A stretch of 39,641 bases of DNA, from positions 1 to 39,641 of IMG/VR virus record IMGVR_UViG_3300017971_000138; one strand, 5' to 3'. The notes beneath the pieces were generated by a model. The model did not search any database. It was not told where the DNA came from and worked only from the letters and a program-made list of their open reading frames with translations. This DNA is from a virus. The position numbers were made by a program, and so were the translations under genes. Below are positions 599 to 39,371 of the stretch, one piece after another (position 1 is the first letter of the stretch; the number at the start of each line of letters is the position of its first letter).

Positions 599-602
<4 letters not shown>
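327..602 (-). CDS. Small membrane protein with two TM segments (91 aa)
   Basis: Unrecognised. Two hydrophobic stretches are visible, at about residues 16-32 and 46-61, separated by a short polar loop. A strongly charged C-terminus follows (RKEYELQKKKEK). Start and stop of neighbours overlap as ATGA with the ERF gene upstream, which indicates translational coupling in the groEL operon. The size and the two-TM, charged-tail layout are compatible with a class II holin. No lysozyme lies next to it, though, and no family motif is visible, so this remains a guess. Confidence 0.7.
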
Positions 603-2886
<2,284 letters not shown>

Positions 2887-15089: not shown

Positions 15090-15449
15090 GTGGTTAACAA
15101 AATCGCAGTCATTTTGATGTGGTGTTCTCCTCTTGTTTCTCTCATTGCTTTTGCGTGCGTGTTTCATTATGCAAAAGATGCATTTGATACGCTTACGAGC
15201 AAGTTTAGGATACTTGAGAATCGTATATTTAAGATGGGCTCTGATGCATTAGAGGCACATGGTAAGATCCATCGCCTTGAAGAGGCTGTCGATGAATTGA
15301 AAAACGCATCCAAGAAGAATCCTAAGGAAGAGAAAAAGAAAGAAGAGGTAAAAGAGGAAGAAAAGAAGGCCACCGAGTTCATTATTAATACAAAGCAGTA
15401 TGGAAAAAGTGATCACAAGAAAAGCAAGAAAGGTAAGCATGGAAAATAA
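15090..15449 (+). CDS. N-anchored coiled-coil protein (119 aa)
   Basis: Unrecognised. GTG start with AAAGGA at good spacing. One TM helix at about 5-25 (IAVILMWCSPLVSLIAFACV), a helical stalk with coiled-coil heptads (35-72), then a Lys/Glu-rich segment, a TEFII motif at 95-99 and a His/Lys-rich end. The layout would fit an inner-membrane spanin, but no partner lipoprotein is nested in or after it. The TEFII-x5-GK end resembles that of the terS-like protein at 6873. It overlaps groES by 11 bases. Confidence 0.65.
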   Translation: MVNKIAVILMWCSPLVSLIAFACVFHYAKDAFDTLTSKFRILENRIFKMGSDALEAHGKIHRLEEAVDELKNASKKNPKEEKKKEEVKEEEKKATEFIINTKQYGKSDHKKSKKGKHGK

Positions 15450-15726
15450 GTTTCAGCCTCTCTATGACAAAGTACTTGTTAAAGTTGAGAAAGAAAAGAT
15501 TACTGAAGGCGGTATTGTTTTAGCTGATGTAGCAGATAAGGATTTAAAGGGTGGCACGGTTGTTGCTATTGGACAGGGACATCTTTTGGAAACAGGTAAG
15601 CTGTGTCCCTTGCAAGTTAAAGTTGGTCAAACCGTCTACTTTGGTAAGTTAGCGGGATCAGAGTGGGGTGAAGACCTTCTTGTAATGCGTGAGATGGACA
15701 TCATGGGATTTGAGTCCTCAGAATGA
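15439..15726 (+). CDS. groES: Co-chaperonin GroES
   Basis: GroES caps the GroEL chamber. The 95-residue protein has the family layout: FQPLYDKVLVKV at the start, a mobile loop with the GroEL-binding GGIVL triad (residues about 22-26), then VVAIGQGHLLETGK, the VKVGQTVYFGK strand and a final LLVMREMDIMGF. ATG 15439 is chosen because AAAGG lies six bases away and the protein then begins where GroES proteins do; the frame is open to 15400. It is translationally linked on both sides (11-base overlap upstream, ATGA overlap downstream). It sits in an operator-controlled operon, far from groEL. Confidence 0.95.
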   Translation: MENKFQPLYDKVLVKVEKEKITEGGIVLADVADKDLKGGTVVAIGQGHLLETGKLCPLQVKVGQTVYFGKLAGSEWGEDLLVMREMDIMGFESSE

Positions 15727-30798: not shown

Positions 30799-31569
30799 AT
30801 GGCAACCTCTAAGCAGCGTAGGAATGGTGTTTACGGGCTTAATCAGCCTATATATCAGCCTGGCCCAGACCCGGTAGTTTCAAACAGAGATCCTCAATCA
30901 TCTGACAAATTAAGATTAATGACCCAGTGGGGCAATAAGCTTACTGGGGGAGCTTGGGTTCTCACTTCAATTACCGCTGGTTCGGCTACATGGACTCCTA
31001 CAACCGTTAACGGCGGCGCAACAATTACAACTGGAAATTTGACCATTGTTGCAGGGGACGCAAATTTGACAGCTGGCGATGTGAATTTGACTGCTGGCGA
31101 CGTAAATCTAACTGCGGGAGACGTAACACTTGACGCTGGCGATGTGACAGCCACTTTAGGTTCAATTACAGCTGGTACAGGCTTCACGGCGACCACAGGC
31201 AATATAACGGCCACAGCTGGAAGTGTTGAAGTCACATTGGGCGATGTAGTTTTGACTAATGGGGATATTTCAGTTGTAGATGGCACCTTGGAGGTAAGAG
31301 ATGTCGCTGGCGGAAATGGGACCATCGTAGCTGATGGCGACATTGATTCTGCTGGAAATATAGAAGGTGTCATGTTGTTTGCATCAGGTGATGATGCTGG
31401 ACAAGCAAGCACTGTAGGGTTCACTGATGTTACTGATACAACCCTTAGTACTGGTGCAGGCGTAGTCCTCATGAAGACAGCAAATCCAGGCGATTCTTCT
31501 GGCTGGTTGAAGATTTATGTGGGAACTGACGTACGTTATATCCCATTCTGGACCAACTTAAGCCCATAA
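30799..31569 (+). CDS. Repeat-rich fibre protein (256 aa)
   Basis: First gene of the fibre array, AAGGAG 8 bases upstream. N-terminal 50 residues (NQPIYQPGPDPVVSNRDPQS and after) probably attach it to the virion. Residues about 75-175 are seven-residue repeats around LTAGDVN, with Asp, Thr and Val at fixed places, the pattern of a beta-helix or triple beta-fibre. The C-terminus (SGWLKIYVGTDVRYIPFWTN) looks like a small cap or tip. It is followed by a 16-bp hairpin. Confidence 0.75.
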   Translation: MATSKQRRNGVYGLNQPIYQPGPDPVVSNRDPQSSDKLRLMTQWGNKLTGGAWVLTSITAGSATWTPTTVNGGATITTGNLTIVAGDANLTAGDVNLTAGDVNLTAGDVTLDAGDVTATLGSITAGTGFTATTGNITATAGSVEVTLGDVVLTNGDISVVDGTLEVRDVAGGNGTIVADGDIDSAGNIEGVMLFASGDDAGQASTVGFTDVTDTTLSTGAGVVLMKTANPGDSSGWLKIYVGTDVRYIPFWTNLSP

Positions 31570-31948: not shown

Positions 31949-32293
31949 ATGAACACAGGTAGAATATCCAGATATGAACACGAAGAGCTGCGCACGCTCG
32001 CTTCTGGTTCGATGCTAACCACATATGTTGCAGTTGGCACCGCCATGGAAAATGCTCTTATAAAATACAGAATCGTAAACGAGACAGACGCCAATTTGAC
32101 GATTTCTTTTGATGGCGTAACTGATCATGACCGCATTCCAGCAAACACAGCTTATATTGATGATGCAGCTTTAGAGTCAGGTGGCTCATCTCGTCTGGCT
32201 AAAGGCACAACTATATACGTTAAATACGATCTTGGAGCTGGTCCAACAACGGGCGATGTTTTTGTTACAGCAATATACAACAAGTATCTTTAG
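31949..32293 (+). CDS. Small beta-rich virion protein (114 aa)
   Basis: GGGAG lies seven bases before ATG. Two-thirds are beta-like (ALIKYRIVNETDANLTISFD, then AYIDDAALESGGSSRLAKGT), matching small structural proteins next to phage fibres. Family not recognised. Confidence 0.6.
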   Translation: MNTGRISRYEHEELRTLASGSMLTTYVAVGTAMENALIKYRIVNETDANLTISFDGVTDHDRIPANTAYIDDAALESGGSSRLAKGTTIYVKYDLGAGPTTGDVFVTAIYNKYL

Positions 32294-32305: not shown

Positions 32306-32908
32306 ATGTCACAGATTGCAAGCATCGGCGGAGGCGGCGGCGGAATCGCTACTCCGGTTTCTGTCCCAAACGGGGGCACCGGAATATCCAGCATTACGGA
32401 TCACGCGCTTATCGTTGGATCTGGGGTCGCTGATGTTACCGTTTTAGCGGCTGCTGGGAATGGCGCAATTCCGATAGGAAGTGTCGGGGCCGATCCTGTT
32501 ATAGCAACAATTACAGCTGGATCTGGTATCAATATTACGAACGGTGCAGGTTCTATAACTATTGCCAGTACAGGTGGTGGTGTTGGCTGGACAGAAGTCA
32601 CTGGTGCCACACAGGCGCTCGCGGTAAACAATGGTTATATTCTCAATAATGCAGGCCTTGTTACTGCAACTCTCCCAGCTACAGCGTCTGTTGGAGATAC
32701 TATAGAGATAGTTGGCAAGGGTGCTGGAGGATGGTTGATAGCTCAAAATGCAGGTCAAACAATACACTTTATTTCTTCTGACACTACGACTGGTGTCGGT
32801 GGATCTCTTGCTTCTACGGTTCAGTATGACTGCGTTGAATTAGTTTGCATAACAGCCAACACAGACTTTGTGGTAAAAGATTCTGTTGGCAATATTACTG
32901 TCGTTTAA
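32306..32908 (+). CDS. Fibre protein with GGTG leader and shared C-terminal module (200 aa)
   Basis: The N-terminus reads PVSVPNGGTGISSITDHALI, a start motif common in phage fibre proteins, then AGSGINITNGAGSITIAST. The last 105 residues (from WTEVTGATQALAVNNGYILN to NITVV) are a module present again at the C-termini of the proteins at 32918 and 36353. Each copy includes the GKGAGGW motif. GGGGA lies six bases before ATG. Confidence 0.75.
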   Translation: MSQIASIGGGGGGIATPVSVPNGGTGISSITDHALIVGSGVADVTVLAAAGNGAIPIGSVGADPVIATITAGSGINITNGAGSITIASTGGGVGWTEVTGATQALAVNNGYILNNAGLVTATLPATASVGDTIEIVGKGAGGWLIAQNAGQTIHFISSDTTTGVGGSLASTVQYDCVELVCITANTDFVVKDSVGNITVV

Positions 32909-32917
32909 GGAGAGAAT

Positions 32918-34645
32918 ATGGCAACGCAAAATGCAATCGATACAAATAAACCTATAGAGGTAAGCAAGGGTGGAACCGGTGCGTCTACTTTGACAGATAC
33001 AAGTGTTTTAGTTGGCAATGGCACAGGTCCAATTGTTGCACTTGCTGCGGCTACAGATGGTCAGCTGATAATCGGCTCTAGCTCGGCAGACCCTGTTCCA
33101 GCGTCTTTAGCTTCTGCAAATGGAACAATAAGCTTTACAGCTGGTGCTGGATCACTTGATCTTTCTGCTGGCGGAGCTCTTTTAACTCCGAGTGGCTTCG
33201 AGTCCTTCGGTGGAGCTGGAAGCTATTATGACGATACAGTTCTTGGTCAATTTACAATTTCTCGTCCAGGAACCGGGTACATAAAAGGCGTTCCTGTTGC
33301 ATGGACAGCCCCACAAACAGTCACAGGTCTTTTGGCTGGAAACACTTATTATATTTATATAGATAATACGGGAACAATTCAGAAGACGACGTCTTATTCT
33401 GAAACGCTTTTTAGCGACAATATAGTCCTGTTTGAATGCTTACGTGATTCTACCTCCGGGACCAATATCCAAGTAACAGTTAAAGAGAATCATCCGTTTG
33501 AGTTTCCCTGGAAGACTTCTGTGTGGGCTCACGATACTTTGGGTCCAGTTATATCTGGCATGCAGGGTGGTGCGAATATAACACTTAATGGCACTCAGAA
33601 AATTGAGATCTCTGGAGCAGATGCGCTTGAGGATCATGGTCTTGAGACAACAATCCCAGATTCTGGTGGCGTTGCAGAGGTGTTTGAACAGTACTTTACA
33701 AACGGTTCTGGCAAGTGGGCTCGACATGCTCAATCAGATACGTTTGATGGAACTTGGAATAACGCTGGTACTCCTACAGCTCTTGGCTCGAACAAGTATT
33801 CTGTTAACAGGCTCTATGTATCTAAAGATGATTTAACGAGCGCTACGCCGACATACATCTCTGTTATGGGTGATGCTCAGTACAATAACTTGTCTGCAGC
33901 TGACACGGCTATTGCAAATGACGCAATCACTACCGCAACAGGTGAACTCGCAGCGCTTGAGCTTGCTCAGCTTGGGTACATAGTTTTTGAGGAGTCTTCT
34001 ACTTCTATTGTGCAAGTTATTATTGCCAAAGAGACAGCGAGAACAAGCTTCTCTGGTGTTACTGCTACAACTGCATCTCTGGTGCTTACGGATACAACGA
34101 ACTTTGATGGAGTTTTGAGTGCTGCTGACACAAACGTGCAGTCTGCATTAGAGACTATTGATGATTGGGGCAAGACGGCATCACGTTCGTTTGCAAGTGA
34201 CTCGGGCAGTGCTGTCCCGGCAAGTGAGGTAATTACCATTGCTGGCGGTACCAATGTGACTACGAGTGCTACTGGATCTACTGTAACTATTAATGCTTCT
34301 GGTGGTGGTGGAGGAATTTCGTGGTCAGAAGTGACTGGAACTACACAAGCAATGGCGGTTGATAATGCATATATTTTGAACAATGCGTCATTAGTTACTG
34401 CCACGTTGCCAGATACGGCGGCTTTGGGTTCGGTGGTTCGTGTTGTTGGTAAAGGAGCAGGCGGCTGGAAGATTGCCCAAAATGCATCAGAGTCAATCAT
34501 CTGGGATGAAGATTCTTCTACGACGGTTGGCACTGGTGGGTCGTTAGATTCCACTGATGATTATGATGCTGTTGAGCTTGTGTGCACTGTGGCTGATACT
34601 ACCTGGACAGTGATTTCCTCAAAAGGAAACATCTCAATTACCTAG
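32918..34645 (+). CDS. Large multi-domain fibre protein (575 aa)
   Basis: Starts with MATQNAIDTNKPIEVSKGGT, the same leader type as 37189 and 37539. A middle section (about 80-400) is beta-rich with a charged central portion; it has no copy elsewhere in the array. The last 108 residues (WSEVTGTTQAMAVDNAYILN to ISIT) are the shared module, preceded by a GSAVPASEVITIAGGTNVTT segment also found in shorter form in 36353. The unique middle is the likely receptor-binding or trimer part. Confidence 0.75.
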   Translation: MATQNAIDTNKPIEVSKGGTGASTLTDTSVLVGNGTGPIVALAAATDGQLIIGSSSADPVPASLASANGTISFTAGAGSLDLSAGGALLTPSGFESFGGAGSYYDDTVLGQFTISRPGTGYIKGVPVAWTAPQTVTGLLAGNTYYIYIDNTGTIQKTTSYSETLFSDNIVLFECLRDSTSGTNIQVTVKENHPFEFPWKTSVWAHDTLGPVISGMQGGANITLNGTQKIEISGADALEDHGLETTIPDSGGVAEVFEQYFTNGSGKWARHAQSDTFDGTWNNAGTPTALGSNKYSVNRLYVSKDDLTSATPTYISVMGDAQYNNLSAADTAIANDAITTATGELAALELAQLGYIVFEESSTSIVQVIIAKETARTSFSGVTATTASLVLTDTTNFDGVLSAADTNVQSALETIDDWGKTASRSFASDSGSAVPASEVITIAGGTNVTTSATGSTVTINASGGGGGISWSEVTGTTQAMAVDNAYILNNASLVTATLPDTAALGSVVRVVGKGAGGWKIAQNASESIIWDEDSSTTVGTGGSLDSTDDYDAVELVCTVADTTWTVISSKGNISIT

Positions 34646-34652
34646 GAGAGTT

Positions 34653-35315
34653 ATGGCAACTAAAAATAGTGTAAACAATAAAACCGGGTCCCTGACGTTG
34701 GACCCTGGAGCATCTGGCGATCCATTTGTTCAGTTAAGTATTAATGCGGATGACAAGTTCATATATGGAGTTGATGATTCAGACAGCGATAAGTTTAAGA
34801 TTGCTGATGCGAACTCTTTGGCTACGGCAAATGTGTTTGTGATGACGGCAGATGGTGAAAGGACGATGCCATTGCAGCCGTCGTTTTTGGCGTATCTTGG
34901 TACTACAGATTCAAATGTAACCGGGAACTCTGATCAGTTTTTCATAGGTTCAGGTAATGCCATGACAGAAGTATTTGATCAGGGAGGTAATTTTAATACG
35001 AATGGTACGTTTACCGCGCCGGTCACGGGTCTCTATAGACTGTTTTATGGGCTTAGATTAACTGGCATTACGGTTTCGCATGATCTTGCATTTAATGGTC
35101 TTAATACATCAAACAATACTTATCCTGGATTTCTTATGGACCCAGGATCAGCATTTCCATCTAGCGGAACTATGGTTATAACGACAAAGGTTATAGCAGA
35201 CATGGACGCGGCTGATACAGCAACGATTAGTGTGACAGTATCAAATGGGGCAAAAGTTGTTGATGTTTCAGCTTCAGGTAGAGATGTTTTTTTTGGTGGT
35301 TATTTAATTTGTTAA
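34653..35315 (+). CDS. C1q-like fibre tip, paralogue 1 (220 aa)
   Basis: Residues 16-60 read LDPGASGDPFVQLSINADDK and continue with GVDDSDSDKFKI, which acts as a stalk and leader. From about residue 75 (ERTMPLQPSFLAYLGTTDSN, then FNTNGTFTAPVTGLYRLFYG) the pattern is that of C1q/TNF-like trimer domains, here with the GTFTAPxTGxY signature. The C-terminus ends FFGGYLIC. It is paralogous to 35325, in tandem. Confidence 0.75.
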   Translation: MATKNSVNNKTGSLTLDPGASGDPFVQLSINADDKFIYGVDDSDSDKFKIADANSLATANVFVMTADGERTMPLQPSFLAYLGTTDSNVTGNSDQFFIGSGNAMTEVFDQGGNFNTNGTFTAPVTGLYRLFYGLRLTGITVSHDLAFNGLNTSNNTYPGFLMDPGSAFPSSGTMVITTKVIADMDAADTATISVTVSNGAKVVDVSASGRDVFFGGYLIC

Positions 35316-35324
35316 AGGAAAGAT

Positions 35325-35984
35325 ATGGCTAAAAAAAATTCTATTTCTAATGCCTCTCAAGATATTACAATTGATCCAGGAGCGAGTGGTGACAGCTTTT
35401 TGCAGTTTTCAATCAATGGGACCGGAGAGTTTCGCATTGGTGTAGACGATAATGACTCGGATAAGTTTAAGATTTCTCAAGGGTCTGCTTTAGGTACAAA
35501 TGATACATTTATAATGACTTCATCAGGCGAGAGAACAATGCCGCTCCAGCCAGCGTTTCTAGCGTATCTTGCCTCAAGTGACAGCTCAGTAACGGGGGAC
35601 GGTACAACGTTTACAATGGGCTCAGGTAATGCGTTAACAGAAATATTTGATCAGGGTGGTGACTTCAATACGAATGGTACGTTTACCGCGCCGATCACAG
35701 GTCGGTACGAGCTTATTGGTGCGATGCGTGTAAATGGCCTAACTTCTTCGCATACAAAAATAGAAATAAATATTGTTACATCAAATGGTACTTATGGTGG
35801 GCTCGAAGCAAATCCTGCATCTATTGATTATAGCGGAATTATTCTTTTCACATGGAGTGCTTTGGTTGACATGGACTCTGCTGACACTGCCACTCTTCAG
35901 GTTACTGTTTCTAATGGAACAAAAGTGGCTGGCCTTCAGGCATTTGGAAGGGCATGCCATTTTGGAGGCTATTTGGTTTGCTAA
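35325..35984 (+). CDS. C1q-like fibre tip, paralogue 2 (219 aa)
   Basis: Aligns with 34653-35315 over its whole length: DPGASGDSFLQFSINGTGEF, VDDNDSDKFKI, GERTMPLQPAFLAYL, FNTNGTFTAPITGRY and HFGGYLVC. The leader and the front of the globular domain are well conserved, while the receptor-facing stretch after residue 135 (IGAMRVNGLTSSHTKIEINI) differs, as expected for tips selected on different receptors. One stretch of 27 bases (35667-35693) is identical to 34995-35021. Confidence 0.75.
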   Translation: MAKKNSISNASQDITIDPGASGDSFLQFSINGTGEFRIGVDDNDSDKFKISQGSALGTNDTFIMTSSGERTMPLQPAFLAYLASSDSSVTGDGTTFTMGSGNALTEIFDQGGDFNTNGTFTAPITGRYELIGAMRVNGLTSSHTKIEINIVTSNGTYGGLEANPASIDYSGIILFTWSALVDMDSADTATLQVTVSNGTKVAGLQAFGRACHFGGYLVC

Positions 35985-36004
35985 TTAATTCAAGGAGATA
36001 TTAA

Positions 36005-36340
36005 ATGGCTTTTACAAATACTGACGTTGACAACATATTAACTGAAGTACAAAGAAATGTTATCAAAGCAGATATTAATTCAGATGTTTTTTATGAAGAT
36101 ATGATCAGGCGAATGCAGTATGGGAAAGACAATGGATGCACAACCTGCCTTCTTATAGAGAAGTATGAAAAGTCTTTTGAAAGATTGAAAAAGAAATGGG
36201 AGCCGATCTTAGTTGCTGATGGAGTTGATCCTATTCCTACTGATGAAGCAGCGTTTGCTGCACTTGTATTTGCGCATGATGATTATAAAGATAAAAAAGC
36301 TATTGTCGATGCGATGCTAGCTGAAATGGCAGGACAGTAA
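36005..36340 (+). CDS. Helical protein within fibre array (111 aa)
   Basis: Unrecognised. AAGGAG is eight bases before ATG. Unlike its neighbours it is helical and charged (DNILTEVQRNVIKADINSDV, then LIEKYEKSFERLKKKWEP). It may be a fibre chaperone or assembly factor, a function such small helical proteins often have next to fibre genes. Confidence 0.65.
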   Translation: MAFTNTDVDNILTEVQRNVIKADINSDVFYEDMIRRMQYGKDNGCTTCLLIEKYEKSFERLKKKWEPILVADGVDPIPTDEAAFAALVFAHDDYKDKKAIVDAMLAEMAGQ

Positions 36341-36352
36341 TAGGGAGTAGTA

Positions 36353-37180
36353 ATGGCAGTATATGATAAGAGGTTAACAGGAAGGAATCGTCTTTCTTAC
36401 CTTGGTGTAAACGCAATCTCGCCTCCAAACTTCAAGAAATACAATAGAGCTCCAACTACCTCAGACAATAAAGGATTTATTGAAGGGGATGAATGGCAAG
36501 ATGACTCTGTTGACCCAGCTGTAGTTTATAAGCTTACGAGTCTTAAAGAGGGCATAGCTATTTGGCAAGGGACAACTTTGCCTTCTGGTGGAACCAACGG
36601 ACAAATACTTGTTGGGTCTACAGGATTGCCTGCTGTTTGGACTGACCTTACTTCTACTGGTGGAACAATAACGGTTACCGGTGGGGCAGGAACTCTTAAT
36701 ATTGAGTCTGGCGGATCTGTACCAATTCAGTTTGATGGAGACACAGGATCTGCTGTCCCCGCTCTCGGAATTCTAGATATTGTAGGGGGCGTAGGCGTGA
36801 CCACCTCTGCGGCTGGCAATGTTATGACCATCTCTTCTTCCGCTGGTGGGCTTGCATGGACAGAAGTTACTGGTACTACCCAGGCAATGGCTGTAGATAA
36901 TGGATATCTTGCAAACAATGCTGCTCCCGTTGTGTTTACACTTCCAGCAACAGCTGCACAGTTTTCTATTATTGAGGTTGTTGGTAAAGGTGCTGGCGGT
37001 TGGAAGATTGAGCAGAATGCCGGGCAGACCATAATATGGGAAACAACTGCATCTACAACAACAGGCGTTGGTGGCTACTTAGAGTCCACTGATGACTATG
37101 ATAAAGTAGCCGTAATGTGCACTGTAACTGACACAGACTTTACCGTAGTTGCAAGTAAAGGTAACATTACAATCGTTTAA
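36353..37180 (+). CDS. Fibre protein with shared C-terminal module (275 aa)
   Basis: N-terminal 75 residues (LTGRNRLSYLGVNAISPPNF, then EGDEWQDDSVDPAVVYKL) appear unique. They are followed by a beta segment (GGTITVTGGAGTLNIESGGS), the GSAVPALGILDIVGGVGVTT segment, and the shared 108-residue module (WTEVTGTTQAMAVDNGYLAN to NITIV). The module is the third copy in the array. AGGGAG is seven bases before ATG. Confidence 0.75.
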   Translation: MAVYDKRLTGRNRLSYLGVNAISPPNFKKYNRAPTTSDNKGFIEGDEWQDDSVDPAVVYKLTSLKEGIAIWQGTTLPSGGTNGQILVGSTGLPAVWTDLTSTGGTITVTGGAGTLNIESGGSVPIQFDGDTGSAVPALGILDIVGGVGVTTSAAGNVMTISSSAGGLAWTEVTGTTQAMAVDNGYLANNAAPVVFTLPATAAQFSIIEVVGKGAGGWKIEQNAGQTIIWETTASTTTGVGGYLESTDDYDKVAVMCTVTDTDFTVVASKGNITIV

Positions 37181-37188
37181 GGAGAATT

Positions 37189-37530
37189 ATGGCCACCAGA
37201 AATAGTATCAACTCAGACATAGCTATAGAGATAGAAAAAGGCGGTACTCGTACAACATCTAATACGGCATATGCGGTCCTCTGCGGGGGAACTACAGCAA
37301 CAGGGGCGATACAGTCTATTGCTTCGGTTGGAACAGCAACACAAGTATTAACATCTAATGGCGCTGGCGCTCTTCCTACATTTCAAGCTGCACCAACAAC
37401 GAGCATGGAATTCCAGCAAGTTTCAACTGATCCGGTTTCTCCTATTGACGGACAGGTTTGGTATAACACAACGTCAAATGAATTTAAAGGACAGGCAAAC
37501 AGTGTTACCGTTACGTTTACTGTTACTTAG
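37189..37530 (+). CDS. Short fibre leader protein (113 aa)
   Basis: Reads RNSINSDIAIEIEKGGTRTT, then CGGTTATGAIQSIASVGTAT and DPVSPIDGQVWYNTTSNEFKG before a short beta end. It corresponds to the first 100 residues of the gene at 37539, without its propeller. It could be a separate adaptor or the remnant of a longer fibre after loss of the tip. AAGGAG lies five bases before ATG. Confidence 0.7.
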   Translation: MATRNSINSDIAIEIEKGGTRTTSNTAYAVLCGGTTATGAIQSIASVGTATQVLTSNGAGALPTFQAAPTTSMEFQQVSTDPVSPIDGQVWYNTTSNEFKGQANSVTVTFTVT

Positions 37531-37538
37531 GAGTGCAT

Positions 37539-38729
37539 ATGGCTACAAAAAATGAAATTGATTCTAATATTCCTATAGAGGTTGAAAAGGGCGGCACTGA
37601 GACGTCTGCTTTTGTGGCTTATACGCCAATTTGCGGTGGCACTGGGGCAGCGACAGCTCTTCAGTCTGTTGCTTCTATTGCTAATGCAAACGATATTTTG
37701 ACGTCTGAAGGAGCAGGAGCTCTCCCGGTATTTAAGACTCCTATAACTTACTTTGAGCAATTGGCTTCTGACCCTGGCTCTCCAACAGCTGGGCAGGTTT
37801 GGTATAACACGACTACGGATCTTTTTAAGGGTGCTGTTACAGTTGTTAGTGGTGCATGGGTTATAAAAGCTGTTGCAACTTATTCTTCTTATTATGGCGG
37901 TGCTGGTGAGCCAGATGATGCATTTGGGTGCAATGGGCCATCCCAGGCGCAACGATATGACGGCGTAGCTGATTCTTGGTCAACCAAAACTGGCTTTGGG
38001 GGGACTGTTAACCCACCGGTTATTACAGGTACCGATGCCGGCGATGCATTAGCAGCAGGAGGAATTGTAGGTGGATCTGTCTCTAATCAGCTAAAAAAAT
38101 ATGATGGAGTTGGAGATAGTTGGTCAACAAAGTCAACAATGTCTGTTTCTTGTACTGGTCCAGGATTTAAGGGGTCTGGCGACGATGCTCTTAAATTTGG
38201 CGGAAGAATAGATCCTCTTACAGGGTGGAGCGGAACAAACTCGGCAGAAAGATATGACGGGACTGGAAATTCTTGGTCAACAAAAGCAAGTTATAGTGGA
38301 ACAGTTGCCGCCCTTATTTTGAGCGCTGGAACAGCAGGAGACTGTCTTCGTTGTGGCGGAGTTACTAGTTCTGGAGGAACACAGACTTCTGCTGTTGAGT
38401 TATATGACGGAACCGGGAATTCGTGGACAACGAAGACTTCTATGAACTCCACTAGAGGCGATGGTGGATATGGTAGTGCTGCAGCAAGCGCAATTGTATG
38501 GGGCGGCTCAGCAGGTGGTGTTACATATACAAAACAGTGTGAAAAGTATGATGGAGTTGGTAACTCATGGTCAGCTGGTCCAACTTGCAATGATAATCAT
38601 GCGCCAACGGCAAGTGTTGCAGATTCTAACACATCGGCTTTGACCTGGAGCAGCGGGTCGGCACCAACTAAATCAACTGAAAGATTAGGTAGCACCTCAA
38701 TAAGCGTAGTAACGTTTACAACAACTTAG
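37539..38729 (+). CDS. Kelch-like beta-propeller receptor-binding protein (396 aa)
   Basis: ATG 37539 has TTAGGAG five bases upstream; an in-frame GTG at 37533 is closer to the SD and unlikely. Residues 1-100 are the leader shared with 37189. From about 138 on, five repeats with YDGxGxSW at 140, 188, 239, 289 and 337 (period about 49) and a GG pair in each repeat match kelch-type blades. Such propellers bind proteins or glycans, so this is a strong candidate for the receptor-binding tip. Several Cys lie in the blades. Confidence 0.8.
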   Translation: MATKNEIDSNIPIEVEKGGTETSAFVAYTPICGGTGAATALQSVASIANANDILTSEGAGALPVFKTPITYFEQLASDPGSPTAGQVWYNTTTDLFKGAVTVVSGAWVIKAVATYSSYYGGAGEPDDAFGCNGPSQAQRYDGVADSWSTKTGFGGTVNPPVITGTDAGDALAAGGIVGGSVSNQLKKYDGVGDSWSTKSTMSVSCTGPGFKGSGDDALKFGGRIDPLTGWSGTNSAERYDGTGNSWSTKASYSGTVAALILSAGTAGDCLRCGGVTSSGGTQTSAVELYDGTGNSWTTKTSMNSTRGDGGYGSAAASAIVWGGSAGGVTYTKQCEKYDGVGNSWSAGPTCNDNHAPTASVADSNTSALTWSSGSAPTKSTERLGSTSISVVTFTTT

Positions 38730-38735
38730 GAGCGT

Positions 38736-39371
38736 ATGGACAATCTTAAGCAAGTTAAAAATATTTTAAGTGATTCTGAGTTTGAAAAGCTTCAAGAAAT
38801 AAAAGATGAGCTTTCTGATTCATGGGAGAAGAACCAGATATTTCGCACTGAAACAGAAGCCCGTTTTGCAGTTCTAAACGATGCAAAGATTCCTACAAAG
38901 GCAGGGAAATACTGGCAATCTGTTCGTGAGCAGATGTGCCACTTTAATGAGCTCGTAACTCTATCGTTTGATATGCGTCGTAAAGAGATAGATCTGCAGG
39001 AGGTTCAAGAGAAGCTTGGTTCGGCAAAAGAATACGACAAGCGTCGCCTTGAGGTTGATAAAGATGAGCTCGTATTCGGTTTAGCTAACTGTAAGCGAGT
39101 GGCAAAAGATCGTGTACGAGAGATCATGCAGTGGTCGATGCTTAAGAAGGAGCTTGATGACGGGTCTTTTGACACGAAGAATGTTAACACTCACCAACGA
39201 GAAACTCTTTTCAAGACAGCTTTAAACAAGGCGCAAATGACTACAGAGAAAACGGGATCAGAGGAGCGTCTTTCTATTGGTGGTCTCATTCATATGCTCA
39301 AAAAAGAGCCTGAAAATAAAGAATTGGTAGAAAAGCTTGAGAGGCAGGCGTTGTCTAAAAAAGATAAATAA
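38736..39371 (+). CDS. Charged helical protein after fibre array (211 aa)
   Basis: Unrecognised. Starts after TAGGAG six bases upstream. Helical and charged throughout, with coiled-coil-like stretches (VKNILSDSEFEKLQEIKDEL, EIDLQEVQEKLGSAKEYDKR). Near the end, KTGSEERLSIGGLIHMLKKE is a less charged break. It is the last large gene before a strong hairpin, so it shares the fibre transcript; a virion or fibre-assembly role is inferred from position only. Confidence 0.7.
   Translation: MDNLKQVKNILSDSEFEKLQEIKDELSDSWEKNQIFRTETEARFAVLNDAKIPTKAGKYWQSVREQMCHFNELVTLSFDMRRKEIDLQEVQEKLGSAKEYDKRRLEVDKDELVFGLANCKRVAKDRVREIMQWSMLKKELDDGSFDTKNVNTHQRETLFKTALNKAQMTTEKTGSEERLSIGGLIHMLKKEPENKELVEKLERQALSKKDK

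Follow-up and report, generated by a model that had tools for sequence, protein, structure and literature searches.

A stretch of fibre-like genes in the genome of a small uncultured tailed phage of a podovirus-like family is fairly likely to be an adsorption locus, in which fibre or spike genes are composed of exchangeable blocks. Leaders would attach the proteins, heads would contact the host, a C-terminal block with the motif GKGAGGW (the C module) would cap them, and cassettes would be swapped. The region is probably one where host-recognition parts are exchanged. This reading includes a correction, because the most obvious shared block of the array is probably a conserved cap and not a variable tip. 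Comparison of 31 genomes, none of them from a cultured phage, brings out the block boundaries, the exchange of whole cassettes and the probable partner genes, and the locus provides a natural series for testing the interchangeability of blocks.

Genome and Relatives

The window, which is the whole stretch of 39,641 nucleotides that was analysed, is an IMG/VR virus record (IMGVR_UViG_3300017971_000138) that begins and ends with the same 123 bases. This exact end repeat indicates that the record closes and that the genome is complete at ~39.5 kb (about 39,518 unique bases). The portal gene matches phrog_156 (4e-65) and the major capsid gene phrog_1357 (3e-27) in PHROGs, where the terminase and a nozzle-like virion protein also have clear matches. 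Rfam searches on split capsid genes gave nothing at the gathering threshold, and for one of these genes nothing at E up to 1.

The closest portals from isolates are only ~20–24% identical, so that, within the collection searched, the lineage of the window has no near relative in culture. No isolate phage matched the window at the nucleotide level. Within the isolate collection the C1q protein query gave no match, and the C module query matched a single record, a Microcoleus phage (45%). Because the isolate collection gave almost nothing, relatives were taken from IMG/VR. Module scans reached hundreds of loci, and 50 records were tested for the window-type capsid protein, which was found in 32 of them, the window excluded. 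Thirty of those 32 genomes (31–40 kb) were compared whole, making n = 31 with the window, and genes in the relatives were called with a simple custom caller. A single-sequence capsid scan of viral_contigs found no close relatives of the window itself.

Discrete Blocks in the Array

All-against-all alignment of the array proteins reveals discrete blocks; all array features given here and below lie on the plus strand. The C module ends three proteins, as the preliminary description had proposed. It is shared by g1 (residues 64–199, gene start at 32306), g2 (residues 434–574, 32918) and g6 (residues 120–274, 36353) at 54–59% protein identity (E 1e-37 to 1e-54) and 68–70% DNA identity, and the common block runs up to the stop codon. 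The modules are situated at 32576–32905 in g1, 34310–34642 in g2 and 36845–37177 in g6.

A second block is the GGT leader. It had been described for the genes starting at 32918, 37189 and 37539, one of them with a kelch propeller, and alignment not only confirms these but adds g1, so that four proteins start with it (g1, g2, g7 and g8). The leaders of g7 and g8 are 52% identical over 112 residues and those of g2 and g8 52% over 42 residues, and g1 shares 44% with g2 over 75 residues (residues 17–90 against 12–86, E 6e-13). The leader is located at 32354–32575 in g1, 32918–33175 in g2 and 37539–37874 in g8. The protein g7 (37189–37530) is a stand-alone leader protein, 66–67% identical to the same gene in the relatives G036 and G040. 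The N-terminal part of g6 (36353–36700) weakly resembles the N terminus of oA (30799–31569), the fibre-like protein that leads the array (g6 residues 1–116 against oA 1–112, 30%, E 0.006). Between oA and g1 lies oC (31949–32293), a small conserved protein ahead of the array that occurs in one to three copies in relatives.

The two C1q-like genes g3 (34653–35315) and g4 (35325–35984), earlier described as a tandem duplicate, are 56% identical over their full length. Neither the middle of g2 (M2, 33176–34177; 64–68% identical to G025 and G044) nor the kelch part of g8 (37875–38726) has a paralogue within the array, which makes the block boundaries sharp.

G, T, S and A are abundant throughout the array, and oA contains short internal repeats, so that one might suspect low-complexity β-repeat resemblance only, with real modules absent. 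In shuffled-sequence controls, however, the C module (module-only alignments) scored 42–58 SD above the shuffles, the C1q pair and its parts 36–86 SD, and the g2/g8 leader 11 SD. Blocks that stand 11–86 SD over shuffles and have sharp ends, with E-values down to 1e-86 and confident predicted folds, make this explanation practically untenable; the similarity is not of a diffuse β-repeat kind without boundaries.

The array had also been called unusually rich for a genome under 40 kb. The size is correct, as the genome closes at the length given above, but the unusual richness is not borne out: eight array genes of at least 150 amino acids make up 20% of the window genome, and the relatives have a median of six genes and 21%. 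The richness of the array is typical of its own family, and it is dense beside the isolate phages cited below.

Predicted Folds of the Putative Tips

The putative tips are likely to be the C1q/TNF-fold heads, the kelch propeller and the variable middle parts, and these would make contact with the host. Structure predictions were made as monomer models. The model of g4 (pLDDT 87) shows a C1q/TNF fold at residues 73–219. It matches the C1q domain of Caprin-2 (Protein Data Bank code 4ous) with a VIA Z of 16.6 and an rmsd of 2.2 over 128 residues, and the top of its fold-match list consists nearly throughout of C1q/TNF-type folds. At the sequence level g3 is weak (Pfam C1q E 0.037, below the cut-off). 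With the g4 model as a guide, both g3 and g4 are predicted to be C1q/TNF-like jelly rolls.

The product of g8 matches solved kelch propellers (phmmer 7.5e-18). Its Pfam Kelch_6 match (8e-5) is slightly short of the cut-off, and repeats spaced 144–153 nt are visible in the DNA. Repeated motifs combined with propeller homology identify g8 as a predicted kelch β-propeller.

For g2, residues 86–200 are modelled with a fold similar to the attachment or shoulder domains of phage receptor-binding proteins. VIA Z values are 8.0–9.7 to Bordetella MTD (residues 50–172), the lactococcal p2 RBP and the phi812 baseplate, with the Bordetella MTD and lactococcal p2 RBP matches at Z 8.0–8.5. A sequence profile of the g2 family gave no meaningful match against solved structures, and the g2 fold is therefore taken from the model. 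Confidence in this model is low for the leader (residues 1–88) and high for the C module (pLDDT ~93). No recognised enzyme domain was found in the window array. Array genes of relatives contain Peptidase_S74, a tailspike chaperone domain.

The C Module as a Probable Cap

The modelled C module of g2 matches residues 78–185 of TSP4 from phage CBA120 (VIA Z 12.4), T4 gp9 (10.2) and T4 gp10 (9.7), and it also resembles the C-terminal domain of the capsid spike of Pseudomonas phage Pa223 (Z 11.0). The XD1 domain of TSP4, comprising residues 80–178, is a trimeric β-sandwich with a presumed spacer role in assembly proteins (PMC8825819). On the basis of the model, the C module is predicted to be a β-sandwich of the XD1/T4 gp9 type.

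The module lies no more than two residues from the C terminus in 40 of 41 copies. With a median identity of 54%, it is the best conserved block measured, ahead of the portal (47%), the capsid protein (MCP, 43%), the C1q head (37%) and the nozzle (35%). A tip that touches a receptor in an arms race is expected to vary more. Conservation above that of the portal, together with the XD1/gp9 fold, makes a trimer cap or assembly block a better reading than a tip. The C module is thus probably a trimerising or assembly cap, which would be re-used by many fibres.

The preliminary description had taken the GKGAGGW module for a receptor-binding tip, in an array that repeated duplication within this genome had expanded, so that many tips would be borne together. 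The three copies do sit at C termini, where many phage fibres bear the tip, and in g1 the module directly follows the leader with no other body. The XD1-like fold is also found in two glycan-binding domains, of CpaA and StcE (PMC8825819), and by analogy with these and with the capsid spike the C module may have a role in binding. Yet the module is the most conserved of the blocks, its closest folds are the assembly domains of TSP4, gp9 and gp10, and its phylogeny disagrees with duplication. A single clade of the three window modules is rejected (AU p 0.0004), each of them grouping with modules of other phages and not with each other as closest relatives, and their synonymous divergence is near saturation (pS 0.64–0.79). 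The separate clades and near-saturated synonymous sites show the window modules to be old lineages. A tip multiplied within this genome is therefore unlikely, and a conserved cap is the reading that we retain.

The C module of g2 is 86% identical to that of a G036-like phage, and the portal is 49% identical. Recent lateral transfer from such a phage was considered and dropped, as the synonymous sites are saturated (pS 0.77), so that conservation and not recency is behind the 86% identity.

Array Layouts and Cassette Replacement

In the window the locus belongs to the late operon, in which it lies downstream of the genes for capsid, adaptor and nozzle, and the array is at the same place in the 30 relatives. 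Its layout, as a combination of domains, differs in all 31 genomes. Fibre-like module genes are present in 31/31 genomes, the oA label in 28/31, oC in 25/31, the C module in 29/31, C1q-type genes in 21/31 and kelch in 4/31. The same head is found with various leaders (L-Q and oA-Q; L-K and oA-K), and the same C module with various bodies (L-C, L-M2-C, oA-C, Q-C and M2-C). Portal identity has no predictive value for the best C module (rho 0.05) or the best C1q match (rho 0.09), neither correlation being significant.

The array proteins could alternatively decorate the capsid, as head fibres or capsid spikes that serve general adhesion and not receptor-specific recognition. The match of the C module to the Pa223 capsid spike would fit such a role, and no site for docking to the tail was recognised in the leaders. 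In contrast, the locus follows nozzle and inner tail genes, Peptidase_S74 and kelch architectures occur in the relatives, and the nearest folds are mostly those of tailspike and baseplate proteins, which renders capsid decoration quite unlikely. In an adsorption locus, the N-terminal leaders, of the GGT or oA type, would attach each protein to the virion, and several tips would be displayed simultaneously.

Comparison of related genomes supports the replacement of cassettes by exchange. Between G015 and L087, the flanks have a pS of 0.02–0.31 (upstream large gene 0.02, L-L-C gene 0.23, oA 0.24 and post-array gene 0.31), but within the cassette the C1q genes are saturated (0.63–0.68), and the values for s36 and for the array gene that follows are 0.57 and 0.49, respectively. 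A saturated cassette inside flanks of low pS indicates replacement, and divergence from a common ancestor fits poorly. Between G002 and G003, the main array fibre genes have a pS of 0.63–0.67 and the flank genes 0.17–0.26. This second pair is mosaic elsewhere in the genome too. Since no close relative of the window was found, replacement is seen in the relatives and not in the window itself. Diversification of the locus would thus proceed by replacement of whole tip-plus-partner cassettes in exchanges between phages.

The locus would also diversify when, from time to time, a tip gene is duplicated in tandem. The C1q pairs are sisters in the tree for the window (100/93), G015 (93/92) and G013, which points to a recurring process, either duplication in tandem or conversion of one neighbouring gene by the other. 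In the window the pair has a pS of 0.63, and the duplication is therefore old. The earlier proposal of repeated duplication and recombination consequently holds for the recombination of modules, given the 31 differing layouts and the G015/L087 and G002/G003 cassettes, and for an old tandem duplication of the C1q gene, but not for duplication of the C module within this genome.

Probable Partner Genes and the ERF Annealase

Two small genes accompany particular heads. The gene s36 (36005–36340) is usually adjacent to C1q-type genes and occurs only in genomes that contain them (16/16, Fisher 7e-5), and s38 (38736–39371) is present in exactly the 4 kelch genomes of 31 (Fisher 3e-5), in tests that ignore shared ancestry. 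Both are probably assembly helpers of the C1q and kelch genes that they accompany.

The window genome also encodes an ERF single-strand annealing recombinase (599–1231, minus strand; Pfam ERF 1.5e-9, phrog_2324 1.6e-21), and ERF is present in 23/31 genomes. A recombinase of the ERF type equals lambda Red in recombining DNA of 78% identity (PMC3945230), which makes exchange between diverged blocks plausible. ERF is plausibly the agent of block exchange, and it would act on the conserved blocks.

A more specific scenario is possible but doubtful. In it, a family of small phages not yet in culture, of which a part may infect chlamydiae, maintains a combinatorial adhesin locus in which the C block is a universal cap or socket, C1q with s36 and kelch with s38 are plug-in cassettes swapped between phages, and several tips are carried on one short tail. 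A literature search gave no paper directly concerned with tailed phages that infect chlamydiae. GroEL was dropped as a host marker, because its best matches are uninformative (Pseudomonadota 57–60%, Chlamydiota 52–58%). If the chlamydial link holds, these would be tailed phages of intracellular bacteria whose viruses are little known.

Comparison with Known Systems

Modular receptor-binding proteins are already well known. So are multi-adhesin phages with re-used gp10/XD domains and podoviruses with swappable spikes, and the locus works alike. It differs from them in the C-terminal position of an XD1-type block, the C1q and kelch heads, the tip-plus-partner cassettes and the density of the array in a genome of less than 40 kb.

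The Ackermannviridae (CBA120 TSP1–4) and phiK64-1/RaK2 form branched tailspike complexes, with 11 adhesins in phiK64-1 (PMC8825819, PMC11414711, PMC6872550). The locus resembles these systems in having several adhesins per phage, re-used assembly domains of the T4 gp10/gp9 type and recombinational exchange of tips. There, however, the XD domains are N-terminal and precede enzymatic spikes in large phages, whereas here the XD1-like block is C-terminal in a 39.5-kb genome, and the C1q and kelch heads set the window apart as well. No match to an XD2/XD3 jelly roll is among the fold matches listed for g2, whose leader is modelled at low confidence.

Metaviromic islands of pelagiphages contain variable C1q-domain proteins near the tail fibre that have been proposed to bind receptors (PMC3909814). 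A C1q-fold gene with a variable domain is common to both, but the C1q genes of the window occur in tandem sets with s36, within a larger mixed array and in another phage family. The Klebsiella podoviruses KP32, KP34 and K11 share with the locus an N-terminal anchor, a swappable functional part and horizontal exchange (PMC8262889). They carry one or two depolymerase spikes, in contrast to the six to eight fibre-like genes found here.

The C Module beyond the Capsid Family

The C module, the conserved C-terminal GKGAGGW block of three proteins of the array, is present at ∼57–66% identity in phage records that nevertheless lack a capsid protein of the window's type (G014, G017, G019, G020, G022, G023, G026, G028–G035, and G037–G039), among them contigs of 53 and 64 kb. 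Its occurrence in these records indicates a module pool that is wider than the phage family of the window. In relatives, genes of the array match HNH endonuclease families (alignment A5). These genes are possibly homing endonucleases residing within the adhesin locus and, if so, could promote exchange.

Interrupted Capsid Genes

The major capsid gene is interrupted by insertions of ∼0.2–1.4 kb in eight relatives (G004, G009, G015, G018, G021, G042, G047, and G049; loci L224, L234, L245, L248, L250, L263, L273, and L277), mostly around codons 90–117. In several of them the insert contains an open reading frame with LAGLIDADG-like GxxDGEGS motifs. The insertions are probably introns with homing endonucleases, although an Rfam search of the split genes returned no match. 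The capsid gene of the window itself is intact.

Capsid Relatives in Chlamydiota

Strong-scoring capsid relatives (E <1e-38) were found in 8 of 234 Chlamydiota genomes (G051, G055, G056, G092, G178, G198, G219, and G271; loci L278, L282, L283, and L293–L299), or 5/231 when seed genomes are left out. At the same threshold, Pseudomonadota (1/299) and Patescibacteria (1/287) each gave a single genome, in both cases a seed. These relatives provide a lead to tailed phages of chlamydiae; several of the Chlamydiota loci lie on contigs of phage length (35–41 kb), and the link therefore depends on binning.

Chaperonin Genes

The window encodes GroEL (1228–2871, minus strand; Pfam Cpn60, 7e-80) and GroES (15400–15726, plus strand; Pfam Cpn10, 2e-21), widely separated and on opposite strands. 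Neither was seen in any of the 30 relatives, and the presence of both within one genome of <40 kb looks unusual.
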